Positions 4,767 through 54,220 of a stretch of 64,000 nt of DNA are shown here, piece by piece. The DNA comes from Candidatus Gastranaerophilales bacterium (GTDB lineage Bacteria > Cyanobacteriota > Vampirovibrionia > Gastranaerophilales > Gastranaerophilaceae). The notes under the pieces were generated by a model that worked only from the letters and a program-made list of their open reading frames with translations, ran no database searches and was not told the DNA's origin. Made by a program: the position numbers and the translations under genes. The stretch covers positions 62,001 to 126,000 of the forward strand of contig CALVDX010000003.1 of NCBI GenBank assembly GCA_944326425.1, written 5' to 3'. Position 1 is the first letter of the stretch, and every line of letters begins with the position of its first letter.

Positions 4767-4782
4767 GTTACAAAAATTTACA
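4767..4782 (-). promoter_or_regulatory. direct-repeat motif (TGTAAATTTTTGTAAC), putative regulator site
   Basis: Two TGTAA half-sites lie exactly 10 bp apart in the sense of the downstream gene. Equivalent motifs precede the genes starting at 10091, 26076, 35869, 40750 and, in weaker form, 50583 and 54418. A one-helical-turn direct repeat is typical of OmpR-family response regulators. The binding protein is unknown. Confidence 0.5.
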
Positions 4783-4809
4783 AAAAAATTTATAAGCCGA
4801 AAGGTAAAG

Positions 4810-6183
4810 TTAATTAATTTTTATTATTGCAACATTTTCAATATGGGGTGTATTTGGAAACATATCAAAAGGTTGTATACTTTCAATAGTACAATTGTTT
4901 TTTAACAGGTATTTTAAATCCTGCGCAAGGCTTTTGGGGCTGCAGCTTACGTAGATTATTGTATTTTTTGTAACTCTTAAAATATTCTTCAAAACTTCTT
5001 CCCCGCAACCTTTCCTTGGCGGATCAAGTATTGCAATATCAAAATTTTCACTGCACTGTTTTATATATTCAAGGCTATCAGAAGCAATTACACTAATATT
5101 TGTTATACTATTTTGTTGTATCGTTTCGATTGCATTTGATACTGCGTGAGTATTCAACTCAACACTTGTAACAGCTGAACATAAGCCGGAGAGAGTGATT
5201 CCGAATGCTGCAATGCCTGCATAGGCATCAAGAAGTTTCGGAGTGCTGAAATTATTTGAAATATAATTCTTAATATAGTCAAACATTATATTTGCACACC
5301 CCGGATTTACCTGAAAAAACGTATCCGCACTAATTTTAAAGATAATATCCGACAGTTTTTCTTCAATAAAGTCAAATCCCGTTAACAGGTGCGTGGTTTT
5401 ACCGAGTATAATATTAGTTTTTTGGGGATTAAAATTAATTGCAACGCCACTTATTCTATCAAATTTTTTACTAAGTTTCTCTGCAAGTAAATTAAATTTA
5501 TTAGAAACCATGCGATCATCTAAATTAACTACTAAAACTACAAGAATATCACCATTGTTCTCGGAAAGTCTCAGGACAATATGTTTCAATTCGCCGGAAT
5601 GAGATGTTTCATTATATCCGGAAATTCCTAGGAGTTCTCCTTCCGTTTTTATAAATTCTATAATTTCATCGCATATTGCCGGATGTATCGGACAGTATTT
5701 AATATTAACAAGATCATGTGTACCGGGTTTGAAATATCCTGCATACAATCTGGTATTATATTTCTGTAATTTACCCCCGCGGCTTCTGACCGGATATTGC
5801 ACTTTGCATCTGTAATTATAATCTTTGCCTGAGCTGATAGGATTATTAATTGTTACCTTTTCACCAAGAATTGAGTACAAGGTATCTTCAACAATGATCC
5901 TTTTATAGTTTAGCTGCTCTTTATATTTTATATGCTGCAGGACACATCCTCCGCAGACCTTTTGTAATTTACATTTCGGTTCAATTCTAAACGGAGAAGG
6001 AGTAATTATTTCTAAAATTTCGGCTTCGGCATAATTTTTTTTAGCTTTTGTTATTTTGCATTTTAACCTATCCTGAGGGCAGGCGCCTTTTATAAAAATA
6101 ACAAAATTATCTTTACGGGCTAGTCCTGCACCTTCACTGTTAAGTTTTTCAACATCCAGAATAACAATATCACCGGCATTCAT
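4810..6183 (-). CDS. rlmD: 23S rRNA (uracil-C5)-methyltransferase, RlmD/RumA family
   Basis: SAM-dependent methyltransferase making 5-methyluridine in RNA. An N-terminal TRAM RNA-binding domain (residues 1-58) precedes four cysteines placed for a 4Fe-4S cluster (C71, C77, C80, C164), then the methyltransferase fold with LLDAYAGIAAFGITLS near 318, ILDPPRKGC near 385 and the nucleophile C414 in YVSCSPKSLAQDL. The 457-residue length is normal. One base separates it from the stop of mnmG, so both are RNA-modification genes of one operon. RlmD and the paralogue RlmC/RlmCD cannot be told apart from sequence alone. Confidence 0.9.
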   Translation of the reverse strand: MNAGDIVILDVEKLNSEGAGLARKDNFVIFIKGACPQDRLKCKITKAKKNYAEAEILEIITPSPFRIEPKCKLQKVCGGCVLQHIKYKEQLNYKRIIVEDTLYSILGEKVTINNPISSGKDYNYRCKVQYPVRSRGGKLQKYNTRLYAGYFKPGTHDLVNIKYCPIHPAICDEIIEFIKTEGELLGISGYNETSHSGELKHIVLRLSENNGDILVVLVVNLDDRMVSNKFNLLAEKLSKKFDRISGVAINFNPQKTNIILGKTTHLLTGFDFIEEKLSDIIFKISADTFFQVNPGCANIMFDYIKNYISNNFSTPKLLDAYAGIAAFGITLSGLCSAVTSVELNTHAVSNAIETIQQNSITNISVIASDSLEYIKQCSENFDIAILDPPRKGCGEEVLKNILRVTKNTIIYVSCSPKSLAQDLKYLLKNNCTIESIQPFDMFPNTPHIENVAIIKIN

Positions 6184-6184
6184 A

Positions 6185-52744: not shown

Positions 52745-52883
52745 ATTATTTCTTCCTTTCTTAAAAATTAATTTACCAAGATATTTATTACCATAAAAAG
52801 GTTTAATTTGCAATATTTGTGTGTATTAAGAATTGTTTTTGCTCTTGAAATTTTCTGCTGCCAAAATGTTTTGGTTCTGAAAA

Positions 52884-54125
52884 TTATTCAGCGGAAATGT
52901 ATCCTCTTAAAGCAGTGTATGCCGCCACATAAGGGGAAGCAAGATAAATAAAACCTTTTGTGTTTCCCATTCTTCCCTGAAAGTTTCTGTTTTGTGTTGC
53001 AAGACAGACTTCGCCGTCACCTAAGATACCGGCGTGAACGCCTACGCACGGTCCGCATCCGGGAGCCATAATTGCGGCGTTAGCCTCTACAAAAATATCT
53101 ATTAAGCCTTCTTTTAGGGCCTGCTTAAAGACATCTTTTGATGCAGGAGAGATAATCATCCTTACATCGGGGTGAACCGTTTTGCCTTTCAATATTTCTG
53201 CGGCAACTCTCAAATCTTCGATTCTTCCGTTTGTACAGGTGCCTAAGAATACCTGATTAACTTTCACATCTTTTAATTCTTCAACCGGCTTTGTATTGTC
53301 TACCGTATGCGGGCAGGAAACCGTGTGAGGAACGGAACCTGCGTCAATAACGATTATTCTTTCGTAATTGGCGTCGGGGTCGGGGAGAATTTGTTTAAAC
53401 TTGTCCTCCCTTCCTCTTTGTTTTAAAAACTCTTTTGTCTTGTCGTCTGCGACAAATAAACCGCATTTTGCGCCGGCTTCAACCGCCATGTTTGCAAGCG
53501 TGAACCTTTCTGACATTGACATCTTGTTTATTGTATCGCCGCAAAATTCAAGCGCTTTGTAGGTTGCACCGTCAGCACCAATCATACCGATAAGGTGGAG
53601 CATCAAATCTTTTGAACAGACGCCGGGCTTGAATGTTCCGTTTACAACGATTTTGAAGGTTGCAGGGACTTTTAACCAGGTTTTACCCAGAGCCATTGCT
53701 ACTGCAATATCGGTAGAGCCCATACCTGTTGCAAAAGCGCCCAGCGCGCCGGATGTACATGTGTGTGAATCCGCGCCTACAAGGACCTCACCGGGGTTAA
53801 CGTAGGTTTCAATAAGTCTCTGGTGGCAAACTCCCGAACCGACATCCGAGAGGACAGCGCCGTACTCTTTAGAAAATTCTCTTAGTACCATGTGCGTGTT
53901 AGATAGTTCTTTGCGCGGGCTCGGGGATGCGTGATCTATAAAAAGAATTGTCCGCTCGGGGTTGTTGAGTTTTTGTTTGCCTAGCTTTTTAAACTCCGCA
54001 ACCGTCAGAGGACCTGTTCCGTCCTGAACTGCGGCTACATCAACCTTTGATATAACGAGTTCTCCCGCCTTAACATCTTTTCCCGCGTGGTTTGAAATAA
54101 TTTTTTCTACAAGTGTCTGCCCCAT
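52884..54125 (-). CDS. leuC: 3-isopropylmalate dehydratase large subunit
   Basis: Isomerises 2- and 3-isopropylmalate in leucine synthesis; needs the small subunit LeuD, not seen here. The 4Fe-4S ligands are C287-like FLGTCTNGR and CGPC in APGCGPCVGVH; ADSHTCTSGALGAFATGMGS is the substrate-site signature. 413 residues places it in the shorter LeuC class that also includes homoaconitase and methanogen-type enzymes, so the exact substrate is less certain. AAAGGGGA precedes the ATG. Confidence 0.88.
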   Translation of the reverse strand: MGQTLVEKIISNHAGKDVKAGELVISKVDVAAVQDGTGPLTVAEFKKLGKQKLNNPERTILFIDHASPSPRKELSNTHMVLREFSKEYGAVLSDVGSGVCHQRLIETYVNPGEVLVGADSHTCTSGALGAFATGMGSTDIAVAMALGKTWLKVPATFKIVVNGTFKPGVCSKDLMLHLIGMIGADGATYKALEFCGDTINKMSMSERFTLANMAVEAGAKCGLFVADDKTKEFLKQRGREDKFKQILPDPDANYERIIVIDAGSVPHTVSCPHTVDNTKPVEELKDVKVNQVFLGTCTNGRIEDLRVAAEILKGKTVHPDVRMIISPASKDVFKQALKEGLIDIFVEANAAIMAPGCGPCVGVHAGILGDGEVCLATQNRNFQGRMGNTKGFIYLASPYVAAYTALRGYISAE

Positions 54126-54204
54126 AATTTCCCCTTTTTTTTATTTTAGATTATAACACAAAGTACAATTTGCGGAGAGTTATTCAATATAGCCAATGAC
54201 TAAA

Positions 54205-54220
54205 TGTAACAGAATGTTAA
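54205..54220 (+). promoter_or_regulatory. variant of the TGTAA direct-repeat motif
   Basis: TGTAACAGAATGTTAA, half-sites 10 bp apart, in the sense of the gene at 54418. It lies about 57 bases before the first TATAAT of the pentanucleotide array. Confidence 0.35.

Follow-up and report, generated by a model that had tools for sequence, protein, structure and literature searches.

A putative RpaB operator ahead of alternative-sigma promoters of lineage-specific genes in Gastranaerophilales

Within a 64-kb stretch of DNA from a Candidatus Gastranaerophilales bacterium (contig CALVDX010000003.1, positions 62,001 to 126,000; hereafter "the window"), several genes are preceded by a direct repeat, TGTAAAnnnnTGTAAA, that corresponds to HLR1 (KTTACAWW-N2-KTTACAWW; PMC13421787, PMC11633204), the operator at which RpaB, an OmpR-family regulator, acts in Cyanobacteria. 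The host order is a gut lineage and a non-photosynthetic sister group of Cyanobacteria, photosynthesis having been reported absent from it (PMC3787301). We consider it likely that RpaB binds this repeat here and activates promoters of alternative sigma factors that drive lineage-specific genes. The operator, its regulator and the occurrence of RpaB in the lineage were already known; what is new are the targets, the pairing with alternative-sigma promoters and the non-photosynthetic host. An initial annotation of the window had proposed an OmpR-family response-regulator regulon of lineage-specific genes, a proposal supported by the match of the site to HLR1 as published and by an RpaB orthologue encoded in the genome.

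The repeat and its candidate regulator

The repeat is real and occurs well above chance. Using the same letters with the pattern reversed as the control for genome-wide counts, we found TGTAAAnnnnTGTAAA 39 times in the source genome (2.01 Mb in 40 contigs, including the window) against 3 for the control, the excess over control on which the initial annotation had made its regulon depend. The fixed letters are TGTAA in both half-sites, which lie one helical turn apart, and among the 73 half-site pairs with gaps of 0 to 14 bp in the whole genome, 39 have a gap of exactly 4 bp. Read on the opposite strand, the repeat becomes TTTACAAAAATTTACAAA. The full published consensus, which was not fitted to the sites of the present genome, matches at 71 sites genome-wide (control, 10). 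Within the window, five matches with at most one mismatch to the 18-bp consensus compare with 0.55 expected, and none of 100 dinucleotide shuffles reached five. If up to two mismatches to the bare 16-mer are tolerated, the window holds 39 matches where 21.8 are expected, so that these are mostly chance, just as the initial annotation had cautioned that looser matches come easily in AT-rich DNA. In a search of the phylum, one genome of genus g71 (G261) carried 83 copies of TGTAAAnnnnTGTAAA against 3 in its control, about four times as many as its congeners or more, which may be due to an expanded regulon or to a family of repeats.

Four proteins of the genome contain an OmpR-type DNA-binding domain above the Pfam cut-off (L038, L039, L040 and L041). 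L038 passes the curated RpaB model NF045944 (357 bits; cut-off, 330), which none of the other three does. Its DNA-binding domain is identical to that of Prochlorococcus RpaB at 73 of 100 positions, and the recognition helix at 17 of 18, whereas the three paralogues share with L038 only 25 to 30 of 95 to 98 domain residues and 7 to 9 of the 18 helix residues. The best 80 loci of an RpaB protein search included Gastranaerophilales at 80 to 99% identity, Vampirovibrio at 73% and Prochlorococcus at 67 to 70%, while no locus among them from beyond the cyanobacterial phylum exceeded 48%. Given that the site is the published HLR1 and that the genome has an RpaB orthologue, RpaB can be named with good support as the predicted regulator. 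Both RpaA and RpaB have been reported in Melainabacteria (PMC3787301, PMC4040986, PMC5877343), as have homologues of the kinase NblS (PMC3787301, PMC4040986). PMC3787301 presents RpaB as controlling photosynthesis genes globally in Cyanobacteria, leaves its role in the non-photosynthetic sister group open and suggests that these regulators may serve another function in Melainabacteria. The available portions of these three papers give neither target genes nor binding sites, and in the open-licence literature we found no earlier report of RpaB targets in this lineage, nor one that treats HLR1 together with Gastranaerophilales or RpaB together with sigma-28.

Pairing with sigma-28-type promoters and the genes behind them

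The genome encodes a FliA/WhiG-type sigma factor (TIGR02479, 233.7 bits; cut-off, 189.6), the published sigma-28 consensus being TAAAGTTT-n11-GCCGATAA (PMC2859248). Perfect copies of TAAAGTTT-N11-GCCG are found at 30 sites genome-wide, a count of perfect copies without a separate control; with one mismatch allowed, the pattern occurs 75 times against 42 in the control, and one-mismatch copies are therefore mostly noise. Although the 30 promoters were located independently of HLR1, half of them (15 of 30) are preceded by an HLR1 (11 to 12 of its 12 letters) at a distance of exactly 17 bp, and in a sixteenth case the distance is 16 bp. Viewed from the operator, 20 of the 71 HLR1 sites are followed at 17 to 18 bp by a sigma-28-type promoter with at least 10 of 12 letters, and four further sites show TAAAG at 17 bp with a 12-bp spacer, making 24 of 71 in all; eight have such a promoter 66 to 126 bp away and 39 have none. 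With a presumed transcription start some 6 bp beyond the -10 element, the sigma-28 consensus places HLR1 at about -67 to -50. This computed position would fit the range published for RpaB as an activator (-66 to -45), whereas operators of repressed promoters lie between -38 and +23 and overlap the core promoter (PMC13421787).

From these data we infer binding by RpaB, activation rather than repression and signalling by an NblS-like kinase. Phosphorylated RpaB would sit on both half-sites, one helical turn apart and facing the gene, and from about -67 to -50 would aid RNA polymerase carrying sigma-28 at the 24 sites; at about 16 others it would aid polymerase carrying the sigma factor of a second promoter type, GCAAT-N17-CTTTATA. 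The targets activated in this way would be lineage-specific and motility genes, including two flagellins, with the NblS-like kinase presumably supplying the signal. Such a system would resemble the NblS-RpaB/HLR1 high-light regulon of Synechocystis PCC 6803 and Synechococcus PCC 7942 in its regulator orthologue, its 18-bp operator and the computed operator position upstream of the core promoter. However, the cyanobacterial targets are photosynthesis and high-light genes (PMC13421787) and those found here are mostly lineage-specific; a further difference is the pairing with sigma-28-type or second-type promoters, and the kinase candidate misses the NblS cut-off. There is also a likeness to the CRP-activated sigma-28 promoters aer and trg of Escherichia coli, where an activator likewise stands at a set distance upstream of TAAAGTTT-n11-GCCGATAA, although CRP belongs to another activator family, its site is centred at -49.5 instead of the roughly -58 computed here, and two promoters are involved there rather than a large set (PMC2859248).

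Gene starts within 260 bp, as given by a simple open reading frame caller that missed at least one gene (L037), lie only ahead of the repeat at 37 sites and only behind it at 8; a further 20 sites have one in each direction, and 6 have none, four of the last being at contig ends. The excess of 37 over 8 has a binomial p of about 1.5e-5. In the window, the three full sites all lie on the minus strand and read towards their genes. A Pfam scan of the 57 genes ahead returned 32 families in at most 34 protein-family matches, five of which are RpoB domains; two flagellins account for another four and a single AAA protein for three. With the matches this few and this concentrated, at least 31 of the 57 genes must lack any Pfam match. 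By comparison, the 50 non-target genes of the window matched 95 families in all, and each of ten hand-chosen ones had a match at E ≤ 0.001, nine of them above the family cut-off. Besides the flagellins, the targets include members of an MG(M/L)..SQ.R family, proteins with EF-hand-like matches, one with a flagellar hook/rod-type domain and one with a weak calpain-like match below the cut-off; none of the 25 families listed, out of the 32, is a photosynthesis family. Thus, the genes behind the repeat are mostly lineage-specific, which is the converse of the initial annotation's wording that most lineage-specific genes have the repeat in front of them. Housekeeping genes do not escape it entirely, as one HLR1 stands about 170 to 200 bp before rpoB.

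Some observations on motility genes and sigma-28-type promoters stand beside this set. The genome encodes a full FlhA, the flagellar export gate (G000:C2:119025-121010), and a second, C-terminal-only FHIPEP match lies at G000:C1:111507-112520. Two sigma-28-type promoters without HLR1 (L139 and L140; G000:C4, at about 55.6 and 57.7 kb) have in common TGTCTGGGATAAT / TGTCTGAAAAAAT ahead of TAAAG and precede proteins that start with MD(V/I)RFGNLTTQ; perhaps another regulator acts on them.

Conservation, a second promoter type and the sites of the window

We searched 117 genomes of the order for the composite HLR1-N17-TAAAG with at most one mismatch. According to totals taken from a hand-copied table, it was matched in 105 of the 117 genomes, 483 times in all against 58 for the control, and single matches prove little because of that control total. 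The source genome has 24 composites (control, 0), which overlap with, but differ from, the 24 HLR1 sites paired with sigma-28 above, and its congener G084 has 16 (control, 0), giving 40 against 0 in the two genomes of the genus. Counts were also high in genus g15 (89 in five genomes; control, 1), genus g21 (15 in one genome; control, 1) and family f5 (29 in three genomes; control, 0), most other genera being weak. A called protein stands behind 22 of the 24 composites of the source genome. For 11 of these 22, an orthologue with about 49 to 98% identity follows a composite in the congener, where all 16 loci were read, and for 7 of the 22 this holds at the level of the protein family (E ≤ 0.001) in G111, a genome of another genus, where 21 were read; this runs counter to the lack of conservation in orthologous promoters that would have refuted the initial annotation. 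A protein whose first residues resemble FliD, as judged by eye, also lies behind a composite promoter in G111. A conserved protein of 42 to 43 residues with a WPG.YSF motif (L024:2888-3019 and its relatives L162 and L184) stands behind HLR1 and a sigma-28-type promoter in two genera.

Among the 39 HLR1 sites with no sigma-28-type promoter, 16 have GCAAT-N17-CTTTATA nearby (at least 9 of 12 letters); a more distant control range of double the width yields 3 of 39. GCAAT-N17-CTTTATATATAT itself occurs in 33 perfect copies genome-wide (control, 0) and 104 times with one mismatch (control, 19). The pattern is present in every one of the 117 genomes searched from the order, mostly at about 10 to 40 copies each against 0 to 3 for the control in the host's own family, and near the control level in some genomes of family f3. 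Only 5 of 30 perfect copies looked at carry a near-full HLR1 (at least 11 of 12 letters) at the usual distance, so that the second promoter type extends beyond the RpaB set.

The eight HLR1 sites at 66 to 126 bp from their sigma-28-type promoters form a class of their own. In six of them, and at the similar loci L134 and L237, 2 to 12 GATAT repeats lie in between, the array loci being L005, L134, L135, L136, L150, L231, L237 and L239; L131 and L012 are without GATAT repeats, and L237 is without a recognisable sigma-28 promoter. This distant arrangement also shows a TATAAT-like sequence about 29 bp after HLR1, so that an ordinary RpaB-dependent promoter may coexist with it. Since the number of GATAT copies shifts the spacing between operator and promoter in 5-bp steps, it is possible that these arrays, and perhaps window positions 54203 to 54336 as well, constitute phase-variable promoters.

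In the window itself, the initial annotation had recognised seven TGTAAA pairs, three of which (4767, 35969 and 40841) proved to be full operators (Table 1). The pair at 26136 was rejected as a full member, its gap being 5 bp instead of 4; those at 10155 and 50691 are single half-sites, and the one at 54205 is a one-mismatch match. The sites at 10155, 35969 and 50691 lead into promoters of the second type. Neither this promoter type nor the sigma-28-type promoters, at their fixed distance from the operator, had been noticed in the initial annotation. A relative (L155) of the gene behind the 40841 site likewise follows HLR1 and a sigma-28-type promoter.

Table 1. Operators, promoters, genes and tandem array at the sites of the window
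Feature	Coordinates	Strand	Remarks
HLR1, perfect to published consensus	4767..4784	-	TTTGTAAATTTTTGTAAC; points towards gene
Sigma-28-type promoter, perfect	4727..4749	-	TAAAGTTT-N11-GCCG; 17 bp after HLR1
Gene behind 4767 site	3618..4688	-	356 aa; MG(M/L)..SQ.R family; without Pfam match
Single half-site TGTAAC, weak	10155..10160	-	6 bp before promoter
Second promoter type, perfect	10120..10148	-	
Gene behind 10155 half-site	9186..10091	-	301 aa; MgtE_N match above Pfam cut-off
HLR1, perfect	35969..35986	-	ATTGTAAACATTTGTAAA; points towards gene
Second promoter type, perfect	35923..35951	-	GCAAT-N17-CTTTATA; 17 bp after HLR1
Gene behind 35969 site	35423..35869	-	148 aa; without Pfam match
HLR1, perfect	40841..40858	-	TTTGTAAATTTTTGTAAA; points towards gene
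Sigma-28-type promoter, one mismatch	40801..40823	-	ACCG; 17 bp after HLR1
Gene behind 40841 site	39776..40750	-	324 aa; without Pfam match
Second promoter type, one mismatch	50647..50675	-	Single TGTAAA half-site upstream (50691 in the initial annotation)
Gene behind 50691 half-site	50203..50583	-	126 aa; without Pfam match
HLR1, one mismatch	54203..54220	+	About 40 bp before pentanucleotide array; membership doubtful
Tandem array (AATAT)15.4, perfect	54260..54336	+	Between 54203 site and gene at 54418

Alternative explanations and implications

Several observations weigh against RpaB as an activator of alternative-sigma promoters. Ten genomes of family f3, which belongs to the same order, show no excess of the composite (6 against 5 in the control), and in the same class the five family f7 genomes likewise have no surplus of TGTAAAnnnnTGTAAA. 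Some sites are near-copies of each other that lie in repeats or at the ends of contigs (L028/L033, L238/L241 and L226/L232), so that 71 overstates the number of independent cases, and at L019, L023 and L029 a perfect HLR1 lies inside a repeated element without a gene start ahead. The two flagellin genes would be expected to be targets of sigma-28, yet behind their HLR1 no sigma-28 consensus stands at 17 bp. Inspection by eye of the 220 bp upstream of rpaB, and likewise of fliA, revealed no full HLR1. Finally, the candidate for the cognate kinase, L213, matches NblS best of all models but reaches 326 bits where the cut-off is 1000, which leaves the kinase step weakly supported. As to the sequences concerned, the region upstream of rpaB contains one GTTACATT half-site, and GCAAT followed 17 bp on by AAGATATATATAT, which bears a weak likeness to the second promoter type; the element of L019, L023 and L029, present in three copies, opens with TATTCCACAGAAGA, and its HLR1 is flanked by CCGGAT and TCCGG.

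The repeat could alternatively be bound by another OmpR-family regulator (L039, L040 or L041), its likeness to HLR1 then being a preference common to the family. Three such proteins score above the domain cut-off, and RpaA is reported to compete with RpaB at some cyanobacterial promoters (PMC13421787), but with recognition helices that match at only 7 to 9 of 18 positions, where that of RpaB keeps 17 of 18 with Prochlorococcus, and with an operator that fits the consensus published for RpaB itself, we regard this as unlikely. Slightly less probable still is that RpaB binds but represses or is neutral: HLR1 has both roles in Cyanobacteria, depending on its position (PMC13421787), but here a near-fixed distance separates the sites from the -35 element downstream of them, which would suit an activator, whereas sites of repression overlap the core promoter.

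It is very unlikely that the repeat is merely an UP-like, AT-rich promoter element without a dedicated regulator. Its composition and its place just upstream of -35 elements would suit such an element, but the fixed TGTAA letters, the fixed 4-bp gap and the count of 39 against 3 would not, and half of the perfect sigma-28-type promoters do without the repeat. Chance matches, to which a GC (guanine plus cytosine) content of 36.75% and the largely expected two-mismatch matches in the window might point, were rejected on the reversed-pattern controls (3 against 39, 10 against 71 and, for the composite, 0 against 24) and have next to no probability left. Activation by RpaB at alternative-sigma promoters thus is the reading that we favor.

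It is tempting to speculate, albeit tentatively, that before oxygenic photosynthesis arose RpaB linked surface and motility genes, through their alternative-sigma promoters, to a signal from the envelope or from redox state, that Cyanobacteria later re-used the operator for light, and that the GATAT-array promoters are a side class that may be phase-variable. The present analysis provides a concrete list of likely RpaB targets in an organism without photosynthesis, in which the operator has been kept, the targets have changed and a phased pairing with flagellar-type sigma promoters is seen, and it points to a second promoter type across the whole order. It also offers a way into dozens of functionally uncharacterised genes of a gut lineage. 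The finding suggests a role for RpaB in the absence of light, and bears on the origin of light regulation.

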